Shown here in pieces: positions 2,992 to 27,104 of a stretch of 45,149 bases of DNA (its first letter is position 1; each line of letters begins with the position of its first letter). Source of the DNA: a virus; IMG/VR virus record IMGVR_UViG_3300028920_000115, positions 1 through 45,149 of that record. One strand, written 5' to 3'. The position numbers and the translations under genes were made by a program. The notes under the pieces were generated by a model that saw only the letters and a program-made list of their open reading frames with translations, was not told where the DNA came from and ran no database searches.

Positions 2992-3082
2992 GTGGTGTCT
3001 GGGTCTGCGGAGGGCTTCGCATTTGCTCACATGGTATCCCAGATTAAATGACCTGAAGTCCGCCATAGATAGGTCAGCCACC
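2991..3082 (+). ncRNA. Three-way-junction RNA element between early genes
   Basis: P1 pairs GGTGG (2991-2995) with CCACC (3078-3082). P2 pairs TCTGGG (2998-3003) with CCCAGA (3038-3043) and holds an inner TGCG/CGCA hairpin (3006-3009, 3018-3021). P3 pairs TGACCT (3049-3054) with AGGTCA (3071-3076). The element fills the gap between two genes and is far more GC-rich than its surroundings. It could be a leader regulating the nuclease gene pair downstream, or a processed RNA. No known class recognised. Confidence 0.6.
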
Positions 3083-3092
3083 AACTAAATAT

Positions 3093-3326
3093 ATGGCAAC
3101 AACAAATAACAATATGTCCAAACAAGAGTGGGCACAAAAAGAAAAAAGGGAGCTATTCTGTAAATTTGTTAATTCAAGAATGATGAGCAAACCAGATAGT
3201 AATTTAAGAGATGTTATTCAAGAAGCCTCAGAAGTAGTTGGAAGGGCATTTGAGAACTACCCAGATAAAGCTGAAGAGAGTAAAGAAGATACCAACGATA
3301 CTAAAGATAAAGTAATTCCCTTTTAA
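3093..3326 (+). CDS. Hypothetical protein upstream of the Cas4-like nuclease
   Basis: 77 residues, starting after AAATAT. The middle is helical (LRDVIQEASEVVGRAFENY) and the tail acidic and Lys/Asp-rich, ending KVIPF. The last A of its TAA is the first base of the nuclease start, so the two are translationally coupled and may act together. Confidence 0.65.
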   Translation: MATTNNNMSKQEWAQKEKRELFCKFVNSRMMSKPDSNLRDVIQEASEVVGRAFENYPDKAEESKEDTNDTKDKVIPF

Positions 3327-5441: not shown

Positions 5442-5488
5442 GGAGATTATAACTAATATGGCGGATTTAGAATACTTTAATAGATAAT

Positions 5489-5638
5489 ATGAAAAGTAAA
5501 AAGAAAATAGAGAAGATATACAAAATACTTGAAGATTTGTTATCAGGAATCGTGATTGATGATTTGGGCGAGCCAACAATTAGCGGCGGTAAAATAGAAA
5601 AAGCTGTTAAAAAACTAATCAATCTCCAAGATAAATAA
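5489..5638 (+). CDS. Small hypothetical protein
   Basis: 49 residues: a Lys-rich helix (KKKIEKIYKILEDLL), a short hydrophobic strand and a second helix. The start is preceded by CTTTAATAGATAAT, and nearly the same leader precedes the methyltransferase start at 5822, with a partial copy at 5643. Function unknown. Confidence 0.55.
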   Translation: MKSKKKIEKIYKILEDLLSGIVIDDLGEPTISGGKIEKAVKKLINLQDK

Positions 5639-5664
5639 ACCCCACTTTAATAGATAACAGATAG

Positions 5665-5803
5665 TTCTTTTAATAGGAGAGTGTCAACTTATTAAGATAG
5701 GGTAAGCATCCTGATTTCTGTTAAGCGATGCTAGAGGATGATGTATGGTTGGAACCCTTCCTAGCGACCTTAATAAGAATCCTCGGCTCTCCTATTAAGA
5801 GAA
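5665..5803 (+). ncRNA. Structured RNA with 17-bp closing helix, upstream of the methyltransferase
   Basis: 5665-5681 pairs with 5787-5803 over 17 bp with a single G-U. Inside, CTTATTAAG (5688-5696) pairs with CTTAATAAG (5769-5777), AGCATC (5705-5710) with GATGCT (5727-5732), and GGGT (5700-5703) with ACCC (5754-5757). No ORF occupies the region. It ends 18 bases before the methyltransferase start and could be its regulatory leader or a stand-alone RNA. No known class recognised. Confidence 0.7.
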
Positions 5804-5821
5804 TAATCTTTAATAGATAAT

Positions 5822-7054
5822 ATGAATAAAATAATACAAGGCGACTGCATTGAAGAAATGCGTAAGCTAGAACCAAATTCAGTTGATACTATTATTACAG
5901 ACCCACCATACGGACTATCCTTTATGGGTAAGAAGTGGGATTATGATGTTCCGAGCATAGATACATTCAAAGAAATGTTAAGAGTAGCAAAGCCAGGAGC
6001 AACAATGCTATGTTTCGCTGGAACAAGAACTCAACACAGAATGGCAGTAAATATAGAAGACGCTGGTTGGATATTAAAAGATTGTATTATGTGGCTCTAT
6101 GGCTCAGGCTTTCCAAAGGCTACTGATATTAGTAAGCAGTTGGATAAGGGACATAAGAGAGAGGTTGTGGGGAAAGGTAAATCTGGTAAAACGGCTATTT
6201 GGCAAGAGCAAGGTGGTATGGGTAATTTTGATATAACCACCCCCAAGACAGACCAAGCCAAATTATGGAACGGATGGAAATCACACGGATTAAAACCAGC
6301 ATACGAACCTATCATAGTAGCAATGAAACCTAATGAAGGTTCTTACGCCCAGAACGCCCTAAAGCACGGAGTAGCTGGATTGAATATAGATGGGGGAAGG
6401 ATAGGAACGGAAGATAGTTTAGGGAGAAAAAATAATGTTAATCCCTATGGAAGTTCAAGGACTTGGTCGGTTAGTAAAACTCCACCACAAGATAATAGAG
6501 ATAATCCCCCTCAAGGCAGATTCCCAGCCAATATCATATTAGATGAAGAAGCAGGAAGAATGTTAGATGAGCAGAGTGGGATAATTAAAACAGGAAATAT
6601 TAAACCACATATAAATCAAGGCAGTTCGTTTCAAGCAAGTAAAAAAATAACAGCTACATTTGCTGGCGACAAAGGAGGAGCATCAAGATTCTTCTATGTA
6701 GCCAAAGCAAGTAAGGCAGAGAGAAATCTGGGGTGTGAGGAGTTGGAGGAGAAGCAGAATATAGGAGTAAGATATACAACGATGGCTGGAGATGGTAGAG
6801 ATAACCCAGAGGTAAAGCCAGTGTCAGGCAAGAACAACCACCCAACTGTAAAACCTATCAAGCTAATGGAATACCTATGCTTACTAACCAAGACACCAAC
6901 AGGAGGAACAGTATTAGACCCATTTGCTGGAAGTGGCACAACAGCGTTAGCGTGTATAAGAACAGGTAGACCATATATTATGATAGAGAAAGACCCAGAG
7001 TATATTAAAATAATTAAAGCAAGAGTAAAAGGTCAGCAGACACCATTAATATGA
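5822..7054 (+). CDS. DNA methyltransferase, DPPY type (N6-adenine or N4-cytosine)
   Basis: The 410-residue protein begins IIQGDCIEEM and has the catalytic DPPY at residues 27-30. HPTVKP is followed by DPFAGSGTT, the SAM-binding loop, at about 366-374. The order catalytic motif first, SAM loop last, is that of beta-class amino-methyltransferases. A long middle section (about 100-330) is presumably the target-recognition domain. No restriction enzyme is adjacent apart from the small HNH gene that overlaps its end. It probably protects phage DNA from host restriction. DPPY alone does not settle the base modified. Confidence 0.9.
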   Translation: MNKIIQGDCIEEMRKLEPNSVDTIITDPPYGLSFMGKKWDYDVPSIDTFKEMLRVAKPGATMLCFAGTRTQHRMAVNIEDAGWILKDCIMWLYGSGFPKATDISKQLDKGHKREVVGKGKSGKTAIWQEQGGMGNFDITTPKTDQAKLWNGWKSHGLKPAYEPIIVAMKPNEGSYAQNALKHGVAGLNIDGGRIGTEDSLGRKNNVNPYGSSRTWSVSKTPPQDNRDNPPQGRFPANIILDEEAGRMLDEQSGIIKTGNIKPHINQGSSFQASKKITATFAGDKGGASRFFYVAKASKAERNLGCEELEEKQNIGVRYTTMAGDGRDNPEVKPVSGKNNHPTVKPIKLMEYLCLLTKTPTGGTVLDPFAGSGTTALACIRTGRPYIMIEKDPEYIKIIKARVKGQQTPLI

Positions 7055-7395
7055 AAAGTAAAAAGAGCAAACTTCAAAGCAAGGCAGATAAGCTCTGGTT
7101 CTTACATAATCTAAAAGATAAATGTGAAGTTTGTGGCAAAAAAGCCATACAAGTTCATCACTTCTTTCCTAAAGGTAGATTTGGGCATTTAAGATACGAG
7201 GATGATAATGCTATTTCAATTTGTATGGGCTGTCATTTTAATCATCATCACGCTGGAGACCCCACTATCCACCAAACTATAATCAAAAAACGGGGGCAAG
7301 ATTGGTACAACAATTTAGAGGCAAAAGCCAAACAGAACCCCAAATCATTTAAAACAATTAAGTATTACGAGGACATTATAAATAAACTTAAATAG
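7051..7395 (+). CDS. HNH endonuclease
   Basis: 114 residues. A basic start leads into CEVCGKKAIQVHHFFPKG, then CMGCHFNHHHAGD, the zinc-supported HNH fold with the HH catalytic pair. It starts by ATGA overlap with the methyltransferase. It may be a small homing-type nuclease or, given the coupling, part of a modification-linked nuclease pair. It lacks any separate DNA-recognition domain. Confidence 0.88.
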   Translation: MKSKKSKLQSKADKLWFLHNLKDKCEVCGKKAIQVHHFFPKGRFGHLRYEDDNAISICMGCHFNHHHAGDPTIHQTIIKKRGQDWYNNLEAKAKQNPKSFKTIKYYEDIINKLK

Positions 7396-7492: not shown

Positions 7493-7513
7493 CCAAAAGA
7501 ATAAGTAAGAAGA

Positions 7514-7752
7514 TATAGTTTGTTAAAGGGGGAAGTGGCGGAATAGCCGTGTGCGAGAGGGTCAAGAGCGAATAGCATCGCCCTCTCCGAAAAAGTAAAC
7601 GCTATTATATTTGGCGTCTAAGTCTTTAAAAGAGTTTGAGACTTACCCATTGGGAGACTTAGATACGAAAAATTGATGAGGAAAGCCATAGTTACGCTCA
7701 TCTTGTAGGGTGGCAAAGCGGGAATCCCTACCTTCCCCTTTAGCAAACTATA
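7514..7752 (+). ncRNA. Large ornate RNA with 21-bp closing helix
   Basis: 7514-7535 pairs with 7732-7752: 18 contiguous pairs (one G-U), one bulged G, then three more. Enclosed are hairpins GGC/GCC (7537-7548), GAGAGGG/CCCTCTC (7555-7561, 7581-7587), ACGC/GCGT (7599-7617), GATGAG/CTCATC (7675-7680, 7697-7702) and GTAGGG/CCCTAC (7705-7710, 7726-7731). CTAAGTCT (7618-7625) has two competing partners, 7639-7645 and 7655-7662. No ORF lies here. Its start recalls a tRNA-Leu 5' end but no anticodon arm or T arm fits. Class unknown. Confidence 0.75.
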
Positions 7753-7761
7753 CTTAATAAA

Positions 7762-7824
7762 CCGGCTTGGGTATCAACGAACGTTCACAAGCTCGGGGCT
7801 AAATAAAAATACCGAATAAGCCCC
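7762..7824 (+). ncRNA. Two overlapping hairpins after the ornate RNA
   Basis: CCG-GCTTG (7762-7769) pairs with CAAGC-T-CGG (7788-7796), and GGGGCT (7795-7800) pairs with AGCCCC (7819-7824). They share two bases, so they compete. They may be a 3' module of the preceding RNA or the leader of the small gene at 7852. No T-run follows, so this is not a standard terminator. Confidence 0.5.
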
Positions 7825-7851
7825 AATATTTACTAATTAAATATAACATAT

Positions 7852-7956
7852 ATGAAGAAAAAGAAGCCCAAAAAAAAGAAATTAACCCAAGAACAAAAGT
7901 TAGTAATAGCTAGATTAAAGGAGATACCACCCAATAAAATAATTAGTATAGGTTGA
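7852..7956 (+). CDS. Tiny Lys-rich protein
   Basis: 34 residues. The first ten are nearly all Lys (KKKKPKKKK), so it probably binds nucleic acid or ribosomes; a short helix follows. The 25-base stretch ending in its start codon (7832-7856) recurs with one change before the gene at 8013. Confidence 0.5.
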   Translation: MKKKKPKKKKLTQEQKLVIARLKEIPPNKIISIG

Positions 7957-11081: not shown

Positions 11082-11311
11082 ATTATTTAATTGTTAAACT
11101 AATAAACCTCCCAACCTTAACATTACCCGTTTAAACCTCCAGCGATGGTTAGGAGTAAACGGGTAATATCAAGGCAAGGAGGTTGCGCCTATGCGTTCGG
11201 TTATCTATAATATGATATATGAACGAGGCAAAAAAATACGCCCTTGCGAGGCGATAAAACTTGTTTGTCTTAATCTCGCTGGTGATTAAACTATTGGTAA
11301 TGTTAAGGTCT
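11082..11311 (-). ncRNA. Two-state leader RNA of the minus-strand array
   Basis: Read on the minus strand. State one: the 5' end (11296-11309) pairs perfectly over 14 bp with 11114-11127. State two: 11123-11134 pairs over 12 bp with 11156-11167 and extends through CCTT/AAGG to AACCTCC/GGAGGTT (11105-11111, 11178-11184), with CTCC/GGAG at the tip. The states share bases 11123-11127 and exclude each other. No ORF fits. This looks like a riboregulator between promoter and array. Confidence 0.7.
11230..11253 (-). terminator. Candidate attenuator within the minus-strand leader
   Basis: On the minus strand CGCC (11250-11253) and GGCG (11239-11242) form a short stem, followed by TA and a run of seven T (11230-11236). 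GCGAG upstream could pair with CTCGC inside the stem and prevent it. The stem is only four to five pairs, so efficiency may be low. Confidence 0.5.
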
Positions 11312-11317
11312 ACTTCC

Positions 11318-11346
11318 AGTATAGCAAAATCAAGAATCATTGTCAA
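11318..11346 (-). promoter_or_regulatory. Sigma70 promoter of the minus-strand array
   Basis: On the minus strand TTGACA (11346-11341), 17 bp, TATACT (11323-11318). Transcription should begin near 11311, at the first paired base of the leader. TTTTCCACA lies upstream at 11364-11356, as at the other early promoter. Confidence 0.85.
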
Positions 11347-12363: not shown

Positions 12364-13685
12364 ACAAATTACAAAAGAAAATAGGTTGGGAGCCTCATGA
12401 TGCCCAGAAGAAGATATTAGCCTCGGATAGTAAAGATATTGTAATCTGTGCTGGTAGACGTTTTGGAAAGAGTGCCCTGTGTGCGTACGTTATCTTAGAA
12501 GCCTTGGTTAAGAGTTGTATGGACATATTAGATGGTAAGGATGTTAAGCCTGCTAGGATATGGATTGTAGCCCCGAATTATGATTTAACAGATAAAGTGT
12601 TTCAAGAGTTAATTAGGTTCTTTTTAAAGGTGTTCCCTGATTGGGGTAAATGTGTCACTACCAGAACGCCAGCGATGATTAAGACGCCCCTTGGTCCAGA
12701 AGTTCGTTGTAAGAGTGCAGATAACCCTCAATCCCTATTAGGAGAAGAATTGGATTTATTGGTAATAGATGAATGCTCACGTGTTAAAAAGAGTACTTAT
12801 GAAGTAAATCTGTATCCAACTACTACCAATAGACCGAATTGTAGAAGATTTTACATTAGTACCCCGTTTGGAAAGAATTGGTTCTATGACGAATGGTTGA
12901 GAGCCAAAAAGAAAGGAGGTGCCTTTCATTTCACCACTAAAGACAATACAACGATTGTTGACGTAGAAAAGATGTGGGAAGACAGTAAGTCTCGTTTACC
13001 TGCTGATGTGTTTGCCCAGGAATTTGAAGCTGCTTTCCTAGATAGTGCCAGTGCGGTCTTCAGAGGCGTGAGAGACTGTATAGATGCCCGTTTAGAGGGT
13101 GGTAAAGAGCCTCAGAGAGGACATCAATACCTAATGGGTGTAGATATAGCGAAATTCAATGATTTTACCGTTTTAACCGTAATAGACAAGAATACCCACG
13201 AAGTTGTGGCTATAGACAGGTTTAACAAGATAGATTATCCTTTACAAAAGAGACGTATCTATTCATTGGCTAACAAGTATGGAGCCAAAATAGTAATGGA
13301 TGCTATGAATGCAGGAGCCAGCATTAGTGATGATTTAAAGGCAGAAGGATTACATATTATTGACTTCAAGGCGGCAGAAGTAAAACAAGCAGACTGGCAG
13401 AAGAAAAGTAGTAAAGTCTTAATGATAGATAAATTGAGTTCATTTATACAGGAGAAGAATATTAAAATTCCTCCCAACCAGGCGTTAATAGATGAATTAG
13501 AAGCCTTCGGTTATACTATGACTGAAAGTGGAAATATCACCTATGAAGCTCCCCCAGGACTACATGATGACATGGTTAATTCCTTGGGATTAGCAGTCTG
13601 GTTATTGCAAGGGAAAACAAAAAGAGAATTAACAGAGGCAGTAAAGTCGATACCGCCTGCTAAAAAACCATTTCAATACGTATGA
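12360..13685 (+). CDS. Terminase large subunit
   Basis: 441 residues. The ATPase half has Walker A AGRRFGKS (31-38) and Walker B LLVIDE (133-138); SRVKKST and the ISTPFG motif follow. The nuclease half has MGVDIAKFNDFT (Asp262), IVMDAMNAG (Asp314) and HDDMVNS (Asp403-404), the acidic RNase H-like cluster. The length is usual for the family. It pumps DNA into the prohead and cuts concatemers. Start chosen by ATGA overlap with the AbrB-like gene. Confidence 0.96.
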   Translation: MNKLQKKIGWEPHDAQKKILASDSKDIVICAGRRFGKSALCAYVILEALVKSCMDILDGKDVKPARIWIVAPNYDLTDKVFQELIRFFLKVFPDWGKCVTTRTPAMIKTPLGPEVRCKSADNPQSLLGEELDLLVIDECSRVKKSTYEVNLYPTTTNRPNCRRFYISTPFGKNWFYDEWLRAKKKGGAFHFTTKDNTTIVDVEKMWEDSKSRLPADVFAQEFEAAFLDSASAVFRGVRDCIDARLEGGKEPQRGHQYLMGVDIAKFNDFTVLTVIDKNTHEVVAIDRFNKIDYPLQKRRIYSLANKYGAKIVMDAMNAGASISDDLKAEGLHIIDFKAAEVKQADWQKKSSKVLMIDKLSSFIQEKNIKIPPNQALIDELEAFGYTMTESGNITYEAPPGLHDDMVNSLGLAVWLLQGKTKRELTEAVKSIPPAKKPFQYV

Positions 13686-18334: not shown

Positions 18335-19594
18335 ATGTCAAGAATAGCATTTTATTTAGACAATATAGATATTTGGAAATCAGGCATCTGGTATCATCGC
18401 CAGGATGTCCCAACAAGAGCTTTAATGAAGAGAGGGCATAATGCCATGCAGTTGGTAATGGTAGATAAAATTCCAGACAAGTATATGGAATTCCCTAATA
18501 CAGTTGTAGTGGGAAGAATTTATCCAGACCACTCTAATCCATTAAAAGCAATCAGGGATTACCAGAAACAAGGTAAAAGAGTAATCTGTGATATAGACGA
18601 TAACTATTGGTCAGTGGACCCATCTAATCCTTCTAAGTTTGTTAGTAATGCGTATAAGGATATGTATGAAACTATGCTTAAAGAAGCAGATGCAGTAACT
18701 ACACCAAGTAAATACTTAGCCAAGAAGATTAAGAAGTTAACTAAGAAACCAGTATTCTTCTGTCCTAATGGAATTGATTATGATGATTACAAGGAACGCC
18801 CAAGAATCAATGGTCAATTAGAGAAGAAGAGAGAGGCTGCCTTAGAAAACCTAACTAATGCTTCTGCAGAATTGGGCGTAAAAGACAAAAAGAAGTTCAG
18901 AGAAGCAGTAGACACCATTCTTCCTTATGATAGAAAACTCAAGGTAGGATACATGGGAGCTGCAAGTCACTGGAAAGACCTTCAGCTAATTGCTGATGTC
19001 GTATTAGAGCTCCAAAAGAATTATAACTTTAGCTTTGGACTCTATGGTATGGTTGGTGAACCATTAGAGGCGGCAATGTATAGTTATGGCAAACTTCTAA
19101 CAAGTGGAAGCAAACCAGAACAAAACGAATACTTTAAGGGTGCTTTAGACTTCTATGACAAATTAAAGAATATGGACATGTATCATGTTCCATTCTATCC
19201 ACCAGAGATGCATCCAGAGATACTTTCTGAGTGTGACTTCGATATTGCCTTAGCTCCATTAGAAGATAGCGAGTTTAACCGAGGCAAAAGTAATATTAAA
19301 TTCTATGAGTATGCCGCAGTGGGAACAGTAACTTTAGCCTCAGATGTTCTTCCTTACAAGGAGGAGTGTAACTACCGAGCCAAGAATACCTTTAAAGACT
19401 GGTATAACAAATTAGAGAAGTTGTTAGTTGATGAAGAATTTAGAAACAAGATTCTTAAGCAACAACAAGACTGGGTAAAGGAACACCGAAGTCTTGAAAA
19501 GATAGGATTAGCTTGGGAGATGGCTTGTCAGAAACCAGGAGGATTAGAGGTTACAAATCAACGTGAGTGGAAAAAACACTTCTGGAAATTATGA
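18335..19594 (+). CDS. Glycosyltransferase, GT-B fold (GT4-like)
   Basis: 419 residues. The N-terminal domain has SGIWYHRQDVPTRALMKRGH and DIDDNYW; the C-terminal nucleotide-sugar domain has LKVGYMGAASHWKDL and ALAPLEDSEFNRGKSNIKFYEYAAVG, the EX7E-type region of GT4 enzymes. It would transfer a sugar from a nucleotide donor. First gene of the cassette, starting four bases after the previous gene. The acceptor is unknown; the position inside the head operon suggests a virion component. Confidence 0.85.
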   Translation: MSRIAFYLDNIDIWKSGIWYHRQDVPTRALMKRGHNAMQLVMVDKIPDKYMEFPNTVVVGRIYPDHSNPLKAIRDYQKQGKRVICDIDDNYWSVDPSNPSKFVSNAYKDMYETMLKEADAVTTPSKYLAKKIKKLTKKPVFFCPNGIDYDDYKERPRINGQLEKKREAALENLTNASAELGVKDKKKFREAVDTILPYDRKLKVGYMGAASHWKDLQLIADVVLELQKNYNFSFGLYGMVGEPLEAAMYSYGKLLTSGSKPEQNEYFKGALDFYDKLKNMDMYHVPFYPPEMHPEILSECDFDIALAPLEDSEFNRGKSNIKFYEYAAVGTVTLASDVLPYKEECNYRAKNTFKDWYNKLEKLLVDEEFRNKILKQQQDWVKEHRSLEKIGLAWEMACQKPGGLEVTNQREWKKHFWKL

Positions 19595-20505
19595 AGATTA
19601 ACGCCTACAACTGGAATAGCTGTATTACCAAGGTCTTAGAACGATTAGAAGAAAAGCACGAATTAGTAGAAGAGCCAGAGGATGCTGATGTAGTTGTTCT
19701 CTGGAATGAGATAGAGAAAGCTGGCTGGCTCAATATAGTTAAAAGAGCCCAAGCAAAAGGAATACCAGTTATCCTTTATCAACAGGGAGTATATGGAATA
19801 GACCGAGTAAGACCACCATTTAATGAGAAGATACATTCAGATGTAGTTCTTGTTTGGGGTCCAGGAGACAAAGATAGATTAGTTAAATACGGAGTGCCAG
19901 AAGAAAAGATTATTGTTACTGGTAGCCCAGTAGTTGACCGACTTATTCCTAAACAGAAACACGATGGTAAAAATGTAGTCTTTGCCTTAGAGCATTGGGA
20001 TTGGGGAGATGTTCCAGAAAATCATATCGTAGCTTCAGAGTTACGCAAGTTAACAGATGTTAACCTTATTACTAAAGGATTACATACAGAGAACTATACC
20101 GAGAACTTTGAGAACCCATTGATTTCAGCTAGGTGGTCAAACGACCATTTAGATATCGTTGCTGACCTTTTGTCAAGAACAGACCTAGTCGTGGCAATAT
20201 CTGAAAGCACATTTGCTTTACTAGCAGAAGTATTAGATATACCAGTAATTATCCCAGATGTCTGGGTTCCAAAAGCAAGAGCAGGAGATTATACATTCCT
20301 AGATTTTGAAAAGAACTGCTCTAATGCGGTAACAAAGTGTAGTTTAGAAGATTTAATTCCAACCATTAAAGAGCATTTAAAACACCCAGGGATTAAAAGA
20401 GAGGAGCGTAAGAAGAATGCTATAATGTGTGGTGGTATAGAAGTCGATAACCCAGTAGATAATTATGTAAGTATTATTGAAAAATATGGAAAAAGATTAC
20501 GCTAA
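19591..20505 (+). CDS. GT-B-like enzyme (glycosyl/glycerophosphotransferase or epimerase type)
   Basis: 304 residues from the ATGA overlap at 19591. Two Rossmann halves are visible: VVVLWNEIEKAGW, VILYQQGVYGIDR, and VWGPGDKDRLVKYGVPEEKIIVTGSPVVDRL, then VVAISESTFALLAEVLDIPVI. The pattern of GSP...R and SES-FALLAEV matches CDP-glycerol glycerophosphotransferases, UDP-GlcNAc 2-epimerases and polysialyltransferase-like enzymes. Which substrate is used cannot be told. Confidence 0.72.
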   Translation: MKINAYNWNSCITKVLERLEEKHELVEEPEDADVVVLWNEIEKAGWLNIVKRAQAKGIPVILYQQGVYGIDRVRPPFNEKIHSDVVLVWGPGDKDRLVKYGVPEEKIIVTGSPVVDRLIPKQKHDGKNVVFALEHWDWGDVPENHIVASELRKLTDVNLITKGLHTENYTENFENPLISARWSNDHLDIVADLLSRTDLVVAISESTFALLAEVLDIPVIIPDVWVPKARAGDYTFLDFEKNCSNAVTKCSLEDLIPTIKEHLKHPGIKREERKKNAIMCGGIEVDNPVDNYVSIIEKYGKRLR

Positions 20506-21082
20506 AAAAGACCTCCTAGATATTAAAAAAGTCTTAGACACCAGAGGAATTAAGTTCTTCTTGGCTTATGGAACTGCTCTAGGAGCTTATAGGGACAAAG
20601 ACTTTATAGATGGAGATGATGATATTGACTTGATTATTACCCAGAAACTCACCTTAAAGGAACGTAAGAAGATAGGATGGGCTCTATTGGATATAGGGTT
20701 TAAACGTCAAGACCGAGTAATGTTTAACGTCTTTGGTAGGTTTGAACAAGTTGGAGAAGGATATGACGGGACAGAGGAAACGGGCATAATAGTCTGTGAA
20801 AGATATGTTCCAGTAACTATATTCTTCTTTAGTGATGAAGAGAAGATGAAGTGTATTCCAAAGTTAGGTTCATTCCCAGTATTAGAAACCAAAGACAAAT
20901 TCTTTAAAGAGGGCGAAAAGATTAAGTTCTTAAAAGAAGATTTCTTAATTCCTAGTCCGATAGAAGAATACCTAGAATACACTTATGATGATTGGAAGAC
21001 TCCAGTTAGCGGAGAACACGCCAAACAATATTCAGAGATATATGGTGAAGAACATTTAAGACAAAAATATGGATTGGACTAG
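20486..21082 (+). CDS. LicD-family nucleotidyltransferase-fold protein
   Basis: 198 residues from the start at 20486. FLAYGTALGAYRDKDF then GDDDIDLII gives the Gly-Thr and DDDID motifs of LicD enzymes, which transfer phosphocholine or similar phospho-groups to surface glycans. The start overlaps the previous gene by 20 bases. Much of the C-terminal LicD region is shorter than the usual 250-270 residues. With a cytidylyltransferase in the same cassette it may attach a CDP-linked group. Confidence 0.82.
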   Translation: MEKDYAKKDLLDIKKVLDTRGIKFFLAYGTALGAYRDKDFIDGDDDIDLIITQKLTLKERKKIGWALLDIGFKRQDRVMFNVFGRFEQVGEGYDGTEETGIIVCERYVPVTIFFFSDEEKMKCIPKLGSFPVLETKDKFFKEGEKIKFLKEDFLIPSPIEEYLEYTYDDWKTPVSGEHAKQYSEIYGEEHLRQKYGLD

Positions 21083-21599
21083 ATTTTATGAAATGCACGC
21101 AAAAGAGTTAGGTGAACCAAGTAATTTCGCTAGGTTTGTCTCTGAGCATGTAAGACCAGGAGATGAATTAGTTGACCTCGGAGCTGGCAATGGAAAAGAC
21201 GTTAAATACTTTAAAGAGAAAAGCATTGATGCTTATGGAATAGATGATGCCTTTGAGAGTGAAGATGTTATCAAGTTAAACGTCAAAGACTATATTAGAA
21301 AAAACCCTTCTCCTAAATACGTATATACTAGATTCTTCTGGCATTCAATAGACAGGGAAACTCAATTAAGTATTCTTGATTGGACAAAAGATACTCTCTT
21401 TATTGAGGCAAGAACCTCATTAGATATTCCAGATAATATCTTTTGCAACAAAAAAAGAAACTTAGTATTTGTTTCAGAGTTAGTAAAAGACTTAAAGAGT
21501 TATGGGTTTGATATAGTTTTTGCCACAGAAGGCAGAGGATTATCTCCTTTCTTACAAGAAGACCCACATTTAATAAGAATAATATGTAAAAAAATATGA
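21069..21599 (+). CDS. SAM-dependent methyltransferase, class I
   Basis: 176 residues with VDLGAGNGKDVKYF, the SAM-binding glycine loop, then DAYGIDDAF (acidic residue after strand 2). Methylates an unknown acceptor; the cassette suggests a sugar or lipid-linked intermediate. Overlaps LicD by 14 bases. The small size suggests a minimal fold without a substrate cap. Confidence 0.72.
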   Translation: MDWTRFYEMHAKELGEPSNFARFVSEHVRPGDELVDLGAGNGKDVKYFKEKSIDAYGIDDAFESEDVIKLNVKDYIRKNPSPKYVYTRFFWHSIDRETQLSILDWTKDTLFIEARTSLDIPDNIFCNKKRNLVFVSELVKDLKSYGFDIVFATEGRGLSPFLQEDPHLIRIICKKI

Positions 21600-21745
21600 C
21601 ATTTGTAATGGGGGTAGCTGATTTATTGGCTGTAGTAATAATAGGTTCATTATTATTAGGTAGTGTGCCACCATGGCCACTAACCGCAATAGTATGTTTC
21701 ATATTAGTGTTTAAGGGTATACCAAGTTTAACATTAAGAGTATGA
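21596..21745 (+). CDS. Small two-span membrane protein in the glycan cassette
   Basis: 49 residues. Two hydrophobic stretches (LLAVVIIGSLLLG and LTAIVCFILVFKG) are joined by a VPPWP turn. It overlaps both neighbours by ATGA. It could anchor the cassette's enzymes at the membrane. No family recognised. Confidence 0.6.
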   Translation: MTFVMGVADLLAVVIIGSLLLGSVPPWPLTAIVCFILVFKGIPSLTLRV

Positions 21746-23232
21746 GGGCTGTCTTAATTAGCCCAACATTAATAATGGAAGCACCGATGCCACTAGCTAT
21801 GCTGGCTCCAATATTCAAGGAAGCAGGATATGAGGTAGAGGCAGTTGTTAACACATTTAAAAAGCCATTAGAGTTATCAGACTTTCTAACTAAGTGTGCT
21901 GGGGCAGACATAGTTGGGATAAATATGCTTACATTTGAGGTTAATAAGACCTATAAGCTGATGAGAGCCCTTAAGAACATAGGAATACCAACAGTAATCG
22001 TAGGAGGACCACACCCAACAGACTGCCCAGAAGAGTGTATTGAAGCAGGAGCAGATGTGGTCGTAGTTGGCGAAGGAGAGGCAGTATTGAAGAAGTGGCT
22101 AAAAGATACCTCTAAGCGTGGAATACTCGACAGAGAGCCTCCTGTGGACTTACAGAGCCTACATTTACCAGACCTCAGTATCTTTGACCCAGAACAGTTT
22201 AGAGATGAGACAGGATTGATTAGAGGTTTCCACAGGATATATACAAGCAGAGGTTGTCCAGGGATGTGCACCTTCTGTGATTGGCAAGTATTCAAACAGA
22301 ACTTCAGATTTTATCCAGTAGATGACATTATCTCAGAGATTAAGAGAAGAAGAGACGAGTATGGGATTACGTCCTTCTCTATAGCAGATGACTGTTTCAC
22401 CGTAGGCAAAAGTAGAGTATATGAGTTCTGTGAAAAGATTAAACCTTTAAATGTTAAATGGAGAGCCAATTCAAGAGCCAACCTAGCAGACGAGGACATG
22501 TTCAGAGCAATGAAAGACGCAGGTTGTCACTCAATAGCCTTTGGACTAGAGAACGGAGACCCTGAAACCCTAGAAAAGATAAGAAAGATGGTCACCTTAG
22601 AGCAGAACATAGAAGCCCCTTGGATGGCTCATAGAGCAGGATTAGAAGTATATGGCTGTATGATGACAGGATTTCCTTGGGAAAATGTGAGCCACGTTAA
22701 AAATAATATAGAGTTTTTAAAAAAGACATGGGATGCTGTATCATTGTATCAAGTATCAGGAGGTTTAATGCCATTTCCAGGCACTCAGATTTACAGAGAC
22801 TATCACGAAGAACACGGTTTTACTAAGTATTGGTTGAGACCAGATTATCAGAACTTTGGAATACAGGTATATCAAAATGCTGTTAATCCATTAGCAATGA
22901 GTACCTTATACCAGCGATACTTGTGGGACGATACATATATCCAGAACGATTATTTCTTTAAATATACCAAGGAATACAAGAAAGCAGTTAGAGAGTTTGC
23001 CAAGGCTATAGGGCGGCACAACCTACCATTTATGCTTAAGAGTAAGTGGAAAGCCAAACTAATGTATTGGGCTTGTCTAGCCTCAATGAAGCTATACGAT
23101 ATTAACCCACACATAGAAATGGCAATAGGGGGCTGGTTCTATGAAAAGTTCGGACATGGTAGAAGAACTAAAGTAGAATCATTAAGAGAAAAAAGAAGAG
23201 GAATTGTAAAAACTTATGATAATCCAAACTAG
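21742..23232 (+). CDS. B12-binding radical SAM enzyme
   Basis: 496 residues. The N-terminal cobalamin-binding domain has GADIVGINMLTF, VIVGGPHPT and VVVVGEGEAV. The radical SAM core has RGCPGMCTFCDW, with the CxxxCxxC cluster cysteines at 172, 176 and 179. Family members methylate unreactive carbons or phosphinates or rearrange rings, using SAM and cobalamin. In this cassette it would alter a sugar, lipid or side group. A phage-borne member of this class is unusual. Start chosen by ATGA overlap. Confidence 0.9.
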   Translation: MRAVLISPTLIMEAPMPLAMLAPIFKEAGYEVEAVVNTFKKPLELSDFLTKCAGADIVGINMLTFEVNKTYKLMRALKNIGIPTVIVGGPHPTDCPEECIEAGADVVVVGEGEAVLKKWLKDTSKRGILDREPPVDLQSLHLPDLSIFDPEQFRDETGLIRGFHRIYTSRGCPGMCTFCDWQVFKQNFRFYPVDDIISEIKRRRDEYGITSFSIADDCFTVGKSRVYEFCEKIKPLNVKWRANSRANLADEDMFRAMKDAGCHSIAFGLENGDPETLEKIRKMVTLEQNIEAPWMAHRAGLEVYGCMMTGFPWENVSHVKNNIEFLKKTWDAVSLYQVSGGLMPFPGTQIYRDYHEEHGFTKYWLRPDYQNFGIQVYQNAVNPLAMSTLYQRYLWDDTYIQNDYFFKYTKEYKKAVREFAKAIGRHNLPFMLKSKWKAKLMYWACLASMKLYDINPHIEMAIGGWFYEKFGHGRRTKVESLREKRRGIVKTYDNPN

Positions 23233-23235
23233 AAT

Positions 23236-23706
23236 ATGAATAAATTACCAAAAATAAAAGACAAGCATCTTAAAATAGAGATAGGTTGTGGTAACACAAA
23301 GCAACCAGGCTTTATAGGAATAGATGTACGAGACTGTGGACAAGAGATAATCTGGGATGTAAGAGGAGGTATTCCACTACCAGATGAATCAGTTAGTGAA
23401 ATCTATTCAAGCCACGTCTTAGAACACTTTGATAACGAGGAATTAAAAGCATTGTTCAAAGAGTTTGTAAGGGTGTTAGAGCCAGGAGGAAAGATAGGAG
23501 CTAGACTTCCACATCAATTAGACCCATCAGCTTATTACTTTGACCACAAGACATTTTGGAACGAGGGTAGAGTTGATACATTACCGGGAGTTCCAGGGCT
23601 TGGCTGTTTAAAGGTAACTAAAAATGAAGCAACTAATAAACTAAATAATGTAGGGTTCATGGAGTTATTCTTTGAACTTAAAAAATATGAAAAACTTGAT
23701 AAATGA
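23236..23706 (+). CDS. SAM-dependent methyltransferase, class I (type 11-like)
   Basis: 156 residues: IEIGCGNTKQPGFIGIDVRD is the SAM-binding loop, then SEIYSSHVLEHFDNEEL and RVLEPGGKIGARLP, typical of the Methyltransf_11 group. A short member without lid domain. The second methyltransferase of the cassette. Confidence 0.82.
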   Translation: MNKLPKIKDKHLKIEIGCGNTKQPGFIGIDVRDCGQEIIWDVRGGIPLPDESVSEIYSSHVLEHFDNEELKALFKEFVRVLEPGGKIGARLPHQLDPSAYYFDHKTFWNEGRVDTLPGVPGLGCLKVTKNEATNKLNNVGFMELFFELKKYEKLDK

Positions 23707-24952
23707 TTTGTATAAGTTAAAACCACAACTATTAGGAGTTGGTTATGACAACTGTATAAAATATATACAGCATTTAATAAAACTAGATGTATTAGAGTTC
23801 CCAAGTGGAACTGAATTTGAAAGCTGGACTGTTCCAGATGAGTGGGTAGTGAAAGAGGCCTGGGTTAAATACAAGGGCAAAAAGATAATTGATTTTAATA
23901 AGGAACCATTATCATTAATGGTGTATTCCCAACCATTTAAAGGAAAGATTGACAGAGATGAATTAAAGAAACACCTTTACTTCTCAGAAGAACAGAAGGA
24001 TGCTTATCCTTATGAGTATTCCTTTTATGAGAAGAAATGGGGAGTATGTCTACCATATAATAAGATATTTGACAAAGACGGAAAAGACAAACTAAAGGAA
24101 GGAGAGTATGAAGTCAATATAGATGTTGAATTCAAACCAGGAACAATGAAAGTAGGCGTTCACACTATTCCAGGTAAAACAGACAGAGAGATATTGTTGT
24201 TAGCCCATTTAGACCACCCACACCAGGCAAATGATAACTTAAGTGGAGTAGCCTGTTTATTTGAATATATCAAGAAGAACCTTCCAAAAAAGATAGACCA
24301 TACAGTTAAAATCGTATTCTGCCCAGAAACGATAGGTTCTATTGCTTACACTCAAACACAGGATTTAAGCAAAGTAGACTTTGTTATTTCAGTAGATATT
24401 TGCGGCAACGATAATGGAGTGTTATACCAGAGAACATTTGAGGAAGAACATCGATTAAATAGGATTGTAGATTTGGCTGTCAAGGAGTCAATAACTGGGG
24501 ATAAGTCAGAAGAATACAGATTTGGTGAGTGGAGGCACATGATAGGCTCAGACGAATATCCATTTACAGACCCACAGATTGGAATTCCAGGAATACTTCT
24601 TACCAGATACCCATATCGTGAATATCACAGTTCAAATGATAAACCTGAAATTATAGACGAGAAAAAAATAAAGCACGTTCAAAAGATTATTCAAAATATA
24701 ATCAAGATTTACGAGAAAGACTATATTCCTGTAAGAGTAGGAAAACTACCAATTCATAGAAGTAAATATGGACTCCAAGCCCCATTTCATCAGATAAACC
24801 GTTCACTTGATTATTTGCTATTCAATGTAGACGGAGAAAAGTACTTATCAGACATAGTTTACTCGTTAAACTTAAATTATGAATTCTGTTATGAGTATTT
24901 TGAAAGGTTGAAAAAAGACGGTCTAATAATAGATAAAAAACTAATGCCATGA
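23687..24952 (+). CDS. M28-like aminopeptidase-fold protein (DUF4910/DUF2172 type)
   Basis: 421 residues. LLAHLDHPHQANDNLSG holds the zinc-binding His-Asp pattern of this group; EYHSSNDKPEII and further His/Asp residues follow. An insert of 60 residues before the active site fits the DUF2172 domain. Proteins of this group recur in surface-polysaccharide clusters, where a role on glycan intermediates is suspected. The start at 23687 overlaps the methyltransferase by 20 bases. Confidence 0.78.
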   Translation: MKNLINDLYKLKPQLLGVGYDNCIKYIQHLIKLDVLEFPSGTEFESWTVPDEWVVKEAWVKYKGKKIIDFNKEPLSLMVYSQPFKGKIDRDELKKHLYFSEEQKDAYPYEYSFYEKKWGVCLPYNKIFDKDGKDKLKEGEYEVNIDVEFKPGTMKVGVHTIPGKTDREILLLAHLDHPHQANDNLSGVACLFEYIKKNLPKKIDHTVKIVFCPETIGSIAYTQTQDLSKVDFVISVDICGNDNGVLYQRTFEEEHRLNRIVDLAVKESITGDKSEEYRFGEWRHMIGSDEYPFTDPQIGIPGILLTRYPYREYHSSNDKPEIIDEKKIKHVQKIIQNIIKIYEKDYIPVRVGKLPIHRSKYGLQAPFHQINRSLDYLLFNVDGEKYLSDIVYSLNLNYEFCYEYFERLKKDGLIIDKKLMP

Positions 24953-25509
24953 AAATTACAGGATTAATGCTTGTCAAGGAACAAAGCTCAAGATTAAAGA
25001 ACAAGAATTGGAGGTCATATAAAGGCAAACCAATGTTTCAGTGGAATCTTGAGAAGATGTTATTGGTCTTTGATGAAGTATATGTTAGTTCTGATAATGA
25101 AGGTATCTTGCGTCAATCACAAGAGTTAGGGGCAAGAGGAATTAAGAGACCACCAGAGTTATTAGAGGCAACAAATATAGACTGTTATAGACACGCCCAA
25201 GGGTTCATGCAAGCAGACGCATTTGTAGCAGTGCAGGCAAATAGCCCAGAAACAGGAATAAAGTTAATTAAATACGCTAAAGACCTTTTAGAATTAGGAC
25301 ACGAAGAAGTCAAGACCTGTCATGTAGATGGGAAAGACTATGGTTCAATCTGGGGGATGACAGATGAAAGACTAATGACCTACCAAGACCCATACCATTC
25401 AAATCCAACTAAATGGATAAAAGACTTCAGCATAGATATACATACCATAGATGACTTATGGAAAAGCTATAATTCTTATAGAGAATATAAAATGAAATAT
25501 AAAAAGTAA
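24949..25509 (+). CDS. Acylneuraminate cytidylyltransferase-like protein (NeuA-like)
   Basis: 186 residues. SSRLKNKNWRSYKGKPMFQW and EVYVSSDNEGILRQSQELGA are the nucleotide-binding features of CMP-sialate and KDO cytidylyltransferases; ANSPETG follows. It is shorter than the usual ~220 and the first loop lacks the canonical Arg-x-Gly-Ser (here KEQSSRL). It would activate a nonulosonic acid as the CMP sugar. The next gene is NeuB-like, the usual pairing. Start by ATGA overlap. Confidence 0.8.
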   Translation: MKITGLMLVKEQSSRLKNKNWRSYKGKPMFQWNLEKMLLVFDEVYVSSDNEGILRQSQELGARGIKRPPELLEATNIDCYRHAQGFMQADAFVAVQANSPETGIKLIKYAKDLLELGHEEVKTCHVDGKDYGSIWGMTDERLMTYQDPYHSNPTKWIKDFSIDIHTIDDLWKSYNSYREYKMKYKK

Positions 25510-25510
25510 T

Positions 25511-26194
25511 ATGTGTGATGTAATATTTGAAGTAGGCCATAATGGAAATGGCAACATGCGTCTTAACAAACTAATGATAGAGGAGGTTAAGAAGTGTGGC
25601 GGACAAGTTGTGAAGTTCCAATTATATGATACTGATAAGATTAAGAAACCTTGGCAGTCAAGATATATGGAATTAAAGATGGCAGAACTGACTAAATATG
25701 ACTTACTGGAATTGAAAGAACACGCTGATAAATGTGGACTAGAATTCATGGCTAGTGCATTTGACCCAGAAAGGGTAGGGTGGCTAGAGGAGATAGGCGT
25801 TAAACGCCATAAATTGGCTTCTAGGAGCATTTATGACACTGAGACGATAAAAGCTATGGAAAAGACAGGAAAGCCCATTATAGCGTCTCTGGGGGCGTAT
25901 AAAGAGAAATCACTCCCAAAGATAAAAAACGCTCAATTTCTCTATTGTGTCGCAGAATATCCAGCATATATTAAAGATTTACCAAGTTTCAAAGAATATG
26001 ATGGGTTCTCAGACCACACAGTAGGTATGTATTGGGCAAGAGAGGCAGTTAAAAGAGGAGCTAAAATTATAGAAAAGCACTTTACATTAAGTAGGGAGTT
26101 ACCAGGGCATAATCAAAAAGGCTCAGCCGAGCCTTGGGAAATGAAAGATTTTATGACGTATGTTAAACAACACGAACGGGGAGCAATGTACTAA
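25511..26194 (+). CDS. NeuB-like sialic acid synthase, short form
   Basis: 227 residues of TIM-barrel NeuB: EVGHNGNGN, GGQVVKFQ, GVKRHKLASR, GFSDHTVG and IIEKHFTL. NeuB condenses PEP with a hexosamine such as ManNAc to make a nonulosonic acid. Normal enzymes are about 340 residues because of a C-terminal SAF (antifreeze-like) domain that contributes an Arg across the dimer; it is missing here. It may still act alone, or be an altered synthase. One base separates it from the NeuA-like gene. Confidence 0.86.
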   Translation: MCDVIFEVGHNGNGNMRLNKLMIEEVKKCGGQVVKFQLYDTDKIKKPWQSRYMELKMAELTKYDLLELKEHADKCGLEFMASAFDPERVGWLEEIGVKRHKLASRSIYDTETIKAMEKTGKPIIASLGAYKEKSLPKIKNAQFLYCVAEYPAYIKDLPSFKEYDGFSDHTVGMYWAREAVKRGAKIIEKHFTLSRELPGHNQKGSAEPWEMKDFMTYVKQHERGAMY

Positions 26195-26197
26195 AAA

Positions 26198-26268
26198 AGC
26201 CCTCAGGACTTAGTAGTTTACTGAAGGCTCTATTACCCCCATCGTTTAACTCCTTTTGAGAGCTAAAC
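26198..26268 (+). promoter_or_regulatory. Structured leader before the HAD-cytidylyltransferase pair
   Basis: AGCC-C-TCAG (26198-26206) pairs with CTGA-A-GGCT (26221-26229) with one mismatch, and GTTTA-A-CTC (26244-26252) pairs with GAG-AGC-TAAAC (26258-26268). The next gene begins at 26341 after a further 70 noncoding bases. No clear promoter box is seen. The element may be a 5' leader of an independently regulated two-gene module. Confidence 0.45.
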
Positions 26269-26340
26269 AACTGCGTCTTCCCGTTTCCAGGTGCAACGTC
26301 TTACAATGAACTAATTAATAATTAACACAAAAAAAGAACT

Positions 26341-26634
26341 ATGTCAAGAGTATATATTGTGGATATCGATAATACGATAACAAAAACAGAGGGAGAGGAT
26401 TATGAGAACGCTCAACCAATCCCAGAACGTATAAGTATATTAAACGAATATCATAAAAAGGGGCATAAGATAATATATGCCACAGCCAGAGGACAAGAAA
26501 GTGGAAAGAACTACGAAACATTAACAAGAAAACAATTAAAGGAATGGGGGGCTAACTACCACTCATTAATTGAAAAACCATATGCAGATGTCATAGTCGA
26601 TGACAAAGCACATAATAGTGAGAAGTTCTTTTAA
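26341..26634 (+). CDS. HAD-superfamily phosphatase
   Basis: 97 residues: DIDNTI (motif I DxDxT-like) near the start, then IIYATARGQESG and DVIVDDKAHN (motif IV). A small HAD of the capsule-biosynthesis type that would remove phosphate from a sugar phosphate. It is followed by the cytidylyltransferase gene, as in some D-glycero-sugar or glycerol-based pathways. Confidence 0.82.
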   Translation: MSRVYIVDIDNTITKTEGEDYENAQPIPERISILNEYHKKGHKIIYATARGQESGKNYETLTRKQLKEWGANYHSLIEKPYADVIVDDKAHNSEKFF

Positions 26635-26645
26635 GGAGATGTGTT

Positions 26646-27104
26646 ATGAAAAAGGTATTCTTTCAAGGTACATTTGATATTCTGAACTGGGGACATGTTA
26701 TGGCATTTCGTGATGCCAAAGCCCAGGGAGACTATCTAATTGTTGGATTAAATAGCGACAAACTTGTAAGTGATTACAAGAATAGAGAACCAATCCTTCC
26801 CTTTTGGCAAAGAAAAGCTATTCTTGAGTCAATTAGATGGATAGACGAAGTTGTCGAAATCCACACCTTTAGCCCTTTAAAAGAGTTAAGGGAATTGAAA
26901 ATCGATGTCTATATCATTGGCTCTGAGTGGAAAGCCAGCAAGGTCAAGGAGATGAACTACATGAAGTCTATCGGTGGTTCAGTATTCTTTACTCCTGAAT
27001 ATGACGGCGTTATTCATTCCAGTGAAATACGGAAACGATGTGTTTCCGAAGAAACCAAAAAACATCTTCAAAAAATGGAGAAACAAGGAAAAGTGTGGCG
27101 GTAA
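26646..27104 (+). CDS. Cytidylyltransferase-like nucleotidyltransferase (TagD/RfaE type)
   Basis: 152 residues. GTFDILNWGH (8-17) is the HxGH motif, but its first His is Asn14. GLNSDKLVSDYK and IIGSEWK complete a TagD-like fold; the ISSTxIR-type region is replaced by GVIHSSEIRKR. TagD makes CDP-glycerol; relatives make other CDP or ADP sugars. The Asn change may alter activity. AAGGAGATG precedes the start, an SD rarely seen in this genome. Confidence 0.82.
   Translation: MKKVFFQGTFDILNWGHVMAFRDAKAQGDYLIVGLNSDKLVSDYKNREPILPFWQRKAILESIRWIDEVVEIHTFSPLKELRELKIDVYIIGSEWKASKVKEMNYMKSIGGSVFFTPEYDGVIHSSEIRKRCVSEETKKHLQKMEKQGKVWR

Follow-up and report, generated by a model that had tools for sequence, protein, structure and literature searches.

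The stretch of DNA analysed here (the window) comprises the 45,149 nucleotides of an IMG/VR virus record of a tailed phage from an environmental sample; for its terminase, portal, and capsid proteins the phage collection contains no more than remote relatives. A DNA N6/N4 methyltransferase gene (5822-7054, + strand; Pfam PF01555, 8.6e-32) is followed by the gene for a small HNH endonuclease of 114 aa (7051-7395, + strand), which matches PHROG NinG/Rap and HNH families with E values of about 1e-7 and the Pfam HNH model slightly below cut-off. Downstream of both genes, between a 30-aa open frame and a group of small + strand ORFs, lies a non-coding gap (7494-7853) in which the sole ORF of at least 40 aa, a TTG frame of 42 aa, is read from the - strand. 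This gap is filled by a candidate helix-capped structured RNA of 239 nt (7514-7752, + strand), which we call RNA-B. Between 3000 and 9000, a Shine-Dalgarno sequence is missing from most genes, whose starts follow AT-rich leaders, for example TTTAATAGATAATATG or AATTAAATATAATATATATG. Further along the window, inside the structural genes, a sugar-modification-like cassette (18335-27101) encodes glycosyltransferase-like proteins, a radical SAM protein with a B12-binding domain, an M28-like peptidase, cytidylyltransferases, and a NeuB family protein.

The ends of RNA-B are joined by a closing helix (5′ strand 7514-7535, 3′ strand 7732-7752) that can be drawn on the + strand either as 20 uninterrupted pairs between 7514-7533 and 7733-7752, two of them G-U, or as 21 pairs around a bulged G7528; the 21-pair helix described in a sequence-only reading of this DNA is indeed there. 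An exhaustive scan of the window for uninterrupted helices around 100-450 nt, with G-U counted as a pair, ranks it as the longest; when the whole window was dinucleotide-shuffled 60 times, the longest helix averaged 14.5 pairs and never exceeded 17. RNA-B as a whole (44% G+C, against 37% for the window) is predicted to fold at -90.4 kcal/mol, with a z-score of -6.2 on the + strand, where none of 200 shuffles folds as well, and of -4.6 on the - strand. Much of this statistical signal is located in the closing helix; taken by itself, the interior stands out only moderately (z -2.1 for 196 nt and -3.0 for the central 151 nt). A window-wide sliding fold scan in 120-nt steps missed the closing helices of both RNA-B and a second element, RNA-A (5664-5804, + strand); no frame contained both strands of either helix.

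G-U pairs make up 10 of the 82 pairs predicted for RNA-B on the + strand, and the tolerance of the closing helices for G-U is confined to that strand, on which the surrounding genes are also read and where 20 pairs (RNA-B) and 19 pairs (RNA-A) run without interruption. On the - strand the RNA-A helix shrinks to 12 uninterrupted pairs, and the six longest helices listed for that strand, of 15 down to 12 pairs, do not include that of RNA-B. Because the uninterrupted helices are shorter on the - strand, the + strand is the one indicated as the RNA strand. The same evidence bears on two ways of dispensing with an RNA. That an AT-rich intergenic stretch simply folds well by accident is extremely improbable: we have a single sequence to judge by and its interior z-score is modest, but the 20-pair helix exceeds the longest in 60 of 60 shuffled windows, and two helix-capped elements occur inside 2.1 kb, both in non-coding gaps and both with their wobble pairs on the + strand. 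A DNA-level element, namely a small non-autonomous MITE-like transposon bounded by terminal inverted repeats of 21 bp, perhaps with a TA duplication, would explain the near-perfect inverted repeats at both ends and the TATA at start and end; we nevertheless regard it as very unlikely, given that the record holds one copy and the collections searched none, that the interior carries additional hairpins, and that the repeats differ at two points, by a G-U-compatible change and by a bulge, both of which a + strand RNA tolerates.

RNA-A is shorter (141 nt; z -5.2) and consists of three hairpins enclosed by a 19-pair closing helix, the second-longest in the window. It lies 1.9 kb from RNA-B, directly upstream of the methyltransferase gene, and ends 17 nt ahead of the methyltransferase start. 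Before it stands a 13-nt gene-leader repeat, CTTTAATAGATAA (5645-5657, + strand), present in three exact copies of which the others are at 5475 (ahead of an ORF at 5489) and 5808 (ahead of the methyltransferase); RNA-A therefore sits behind the same type of leader as its protein-coding neighbours. Any words common to RNA-A and RNA-B are shorter than 7 letters, so they share a style, not a family. Like RNA-B, RNA-A has no credible match in Rfam, and searches for its relatives (model R3, blastn) returned only the sequence itself. It also contains a two-partner arm, CUUAUUAAG (5688-5696), able to pair with CUUAAUAAG (5769-5777). Judged by predicted structure, the phage thus has at least one further element built like RNA-B, namely RNA-A.

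Within the closing helix of RNA-B, four + strand hairpins are well supported, with mean pair probabilities of 0.73 to 0.95: hairpin 1 (7555-7587; 0.95), with 8 + 4 pairs and a bulged CAA; hairpin 2 (7599-7617; 0.73); hairpin 3 (7618-7662); and hairpin 4 (7675-7702; 0.86), which reads GATGAG-GAA-AGC-CATA-GTT-ACG-CTCATC. In the minimum fold the junction TGGCGGAATAGCCGTGTGC (7536-7554, + strand) extends the closing helix inward. An alternative fold at -86.2 kcal/mol, 4.2 above the minimum of -90.4, instead forms a hairpin GTAGGG...CCCTAC (7705-7731, + strand; ensemble probability about 0.02) that directly abuts the closing helix and whose loop, with the insert GGCAAAGCGG, could pair with 7546-7550. 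The description of the interior as five hairpins plus one arm fits this costlier fold; in the minimum, two of the hairpins give way to the inward extension of the closing helix.

The arm in question, CTAAGTCT (7618-7625), has both of the perfect partners ascribed to it, letter for letter: AGACTTA at 7639-7645 and AGACTTAG at 7655-7662. AGACTTA occurs twice, 16 nt apart, and so a two-partner arm is literally present. The predicted ensemble assigns about 93% to the pairing with 7655-7662 and about 6% to that with 7639-7645, the best folds of each lying 1 kcal/mol apart, and an arm with two equivalent partners arises in 375 of 20,000 shuffles (1.9%). Since one pairing dominates the ensemble and equivalent arms occur at that rate in shuffled sequence, the proposal that the arm acts as a switch is unproven and not favoured by the energies; on the letters, a two-partner switch is possible.

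The sequence-only reading had also proposed a search against Rfam and drawn a comparison with GOLLD and ROOL. RNA-B gave no credible match to any of 4227 Rfam families, either at the gathering thresholds or at E values up to 10, and this includes the GOLLD, ROOL, and OLE covariance models. These large ornate RNAs of bacteria and phages resemble RNA-B in being non-coding, in occurring in phages, and in having a strongly predicted multi-branched fold (PMC12286853), but the ROOL described there is 659 nt long and many of the GOLLD members exceed 800 nt (PMC12286853), whereas RNA-B has 239 nt, no tRNA in its window, no relatives among the sequences searched, and no covariation; the comparison thus finds no support. 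The statement that RNA-B is not a tRNA, tmRNA, or recognisable group I intron agrees with the searches: ARAGORN makes no standard tRNA or tmRNA call, and the Rfam group I and group II intron models do not match. Like a tmRNA, RNA-B has ends joined by a helix with branched structure between them, but in the window ARAGORN at a lowered threshold yields only untagged, spurious tmRNA calls and Rfam gives no match. A T-box and a group I intron had been suggested by similar short words and were dropped for want of an Rfam match. As for RNAs that accompany particular proteins, searches of the record found no tRNA (ARAGORN, Rfam), no reverse transcriptase (RVT_1) such as would accompany a retron RNA, and no TnpB/Cas12f-like nuclease (PF07282) such as would accompany a TnpB-type guide RNA; a HEARO or IscB-type omega RNA has no Rfam match here, and the neighbouring HNH protein, with its 114 aa, is NinG/HNH-like and not of IscB length. 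By the tests made, then, RNA-B is not GOLLD, ROOL, a tRNA, a tmRNA, an intron, a retron, or a guide RNA.

We were unable to find relatives of RNA-B. A search through the HNH protein (viral_contigs) led to two distant HNH proteins beside which the RNA was not found, and one through the terminase led to none; RNA-B was in none of 80 methyltransferase loci examined by nhmmer, blastn, a closing-helix scan, and model R1, and model R1 found nothing in 50 whole phage records. Of the DNA patterns tried in viral_contigs and genome_contigs, GGAAGTGGCGGAATAGCCG had 0 matches; GGTGGCAAAGCGGGAAT had 6, apparently coding, with no RNA-B-like closing helix seen around them; GTGGCGGAAN{151,181}GTGGCAAAGC had 16, mostly apparently coding and none with an RNA-B-like helix; and GTGGCGGAAN{119,149}GAGGAAAGCC and GTGGCGGAATN{151,181}GTGGCAAAGC (genome_contigs) had 8 and 37, without a significant match to R1. 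In the phage collection, blastn with RNA-B returned only a coding match, to a Streptomyces phage integrase. As these scans rely on exact short words or close protein relatives, the absence of relatives of RNA-B and RNA-A is weak evidence, and it leaves both without covariation. By these sequence searches, RNA-B is an orphan structured RNA in all the collections covered.

Other phage loci contain a different, recurrent RNA of 85-105 nt composed of UGUGGCGG, a variable hairpin, CUGGU, and a stem-loop with AAUCACAUAA (alignment A2, model R2). It occurs at 3028-3256 of locus L006 (contig IMGVR_UViG_3300005096_000107), in two tandem copies, and in about 25-30 of loci L094-L154; a UGUG/CACA pseudoknot is likely, and the stem around AAUCACAUAA varies between members with its pairing kept. 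The search pattern itself imposed UGUGGCGG and AAUCACAUAA, and filtering demanded a stem; neither step imposed CUGGU. In the four loci compared with Rfam, no match appeared at E values up to 1. The family shares with RNA-B a closing helix, a position beside methyltransferase genes (in L006), and the word GUGGCGG, but its members are less than half as long, and RNA-B was rejected as a member, model R2 having no above-chance match in the window and the combination of UGUGGCGG with AAUCACAUAA being absent as well. Further phage stretches capped by helices of 16-29 pairs, their interiors all different, lie at L006:1165-1304, L007:3583-3679, and L171:30160-30280 and 13470-13570; some of the L171 cases may be simple long hairpins.

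RNA-B can also be laid out as a class II tRNA, and one explanation, which we consider doubtful, is that it is a tRNA-Leu(CAA)-derived or tRNA-mimicking RNA that serves as a decoy for a protein binding or cutting tRNA-Leu. In such a layout GGGGAAG/CUUCCCC would form a 7-pair acceptor, extended outward by 14 pairs; the junction at 7536-7554 would supply U8-G9 and a D-arm with a 3-pair stem and an 11-nt loop; hairpin 1 would occupy the anticodon-arm position, with U33-CAA-G37 and a loop opening G-U-CAA-G-A; and the hairpin at 7705-7731 would be the T-stem, abutting the acceptor. Three insertions are needed: the anticodon loop takes a hairpin of 14 nt, the variable arm about 110 nt, and the T-loop 10 nt; the T-loop so enlarged could pair with the D-loop. 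Because it has no free CCA end, RNA-B is not an ordinary tRNA; as a mimic, with its acceptor end locked in the 21-pair helix, it could not be charged, and its target would be a host protein. Several observations suit this layout: i) GAAGTGGCGGAAT, just inside the closing helix, is identical to positions 4-16 of tRNA-Leu, as a comparison with library tRNA-Leu genes shows; ii) shuffling the interior reproduces the joint set (U8, D-stem, A14, anticodon stem, U33, R37, T-stem, with the stems in tRNA order) only 6 times in 150,000 dinucleotide shuffles and 18 times in 300,000 mononucleotide ones; iii) the D-arm letters, the 3-pair D-stem, the anticodon CAA in its U33-R37 setting, and the large variable region all indicate Leu; and iv) ARAGORN at a lowered threshold, with the inserts removed by hand, calls tRNA-Leu(caa).

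Against this, the features were picked after inspection, and the molecule departs from tRNA-Leu in having G18 without G19, UGGCAAAGCGGGAAU in place of UUCRA in the T-loop, and no CCA after an acceptor that is 14 pairs too long. On the real sequence neither the Rfam tRNA model nor ARAGORN finds anything credible, and ARAGORN with introns and lowered thresholds makes different, unconvincing calls; in a local alignment to 48 tRNAs, 257 of 300 shuffles match the score, and the score of the 20-nt D-region is equalled by 16% of random 20-mers. The T-like stem takes up about 2% of the predicted ensemble, the favoured pairing being 4.2 kcal/mol better, and RNA-A lacks the tRNA-like features. With three insertions, the acceptor, D, anticodon, and T stems are attainable but are not the favoured fold.

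RNA-B is real and unusual as an RNA candidate, which bears out the sequence-only reading in its general idea, and the explanation we prefer, although we would rate it somewhat below an even chance, is a structured non-coding RNA in a + strand phage operon, released or protected by means of its closing helix and acting as an RNA. Positions 7514-7752 would be co-transcribed in the sense of the neighbouring genes, and the closing helix of 20-21 pairs would join the ends and set RNA-B apart from the messenger. Duplexes this long are what RNase III-type enzymes normally process, so a compact multi-branched RNA, either excised from the transcript or protected within it, would be the likely result and would then function as RNA. 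Promoter-like sites near RNA-B do not rise above chance, and the absence of a strong promoter directly upstream fits processing from a longer transcript. What we observe in RNA-B are the features of its sequence, including a helix beyond the range of the shuffles and + strand wobble pairs in a non-coding gap, the lack of an Rfam match, and a predicted architecture that recurs in RNA-A; from these we infer transcription, processing, stability, and action in trans. The orphan status of RNA-B and the modest z-scores of its interior (-2 to -3) weigh against an excised RNA, and a cis-acting role in the messenger accounts equally for the facts.

Such a role, in which the long stem of an intercistronic element stabilises or separates messenger segments and no free RNA has a function, is the main alternative together with the tRNA-mimic reading, and seems to us unlikely on balance. 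The stem would block exonucleases or mark where the transcript is processed, between the HNH part and the small genes that follow. RNA-B does lie between genes that point the same way, and no clear promoter or terminator belonging to it was found; RNA-A lies immediately before the methyltransferase start. In a third structured region (11094-11310), which begins close to where a - strand promoter (11346-11318) is predicted to start transcription, the RNA would form the leader of a - operon. For a stabiliser, however, a simple hairpin would be enough, and four internal hairpins exceed its needs. The third region has features of its own: the structure across 11094-11346 is strong (an 89-nt hairpin has z -8.6 on the - strand), the promoter matches at 11 of 12 positions (TTGACA-17-TATACT), a terminator-like site lies at 11253-11239 (- strand), and an 18-nt arm system has CCTTAACATTACC with two partners; the whole looks like a leader or attenuator of a - operon. 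On the + strand, AAGGAGGT precedes a 32-aa ORF whose start is at 11192.

We wish to stress that the structured RNAs of phages have been little explored, and that this phage carries at least two predicted helix-capped RNAs with no known family. If expressed, RNA-A and RNA-B would be new RNA genes; and if the likeness of RNA-B to tRNA-Leu were to prove true, decoy RNAs against tRNA-targeting enzymes would become directly testable.
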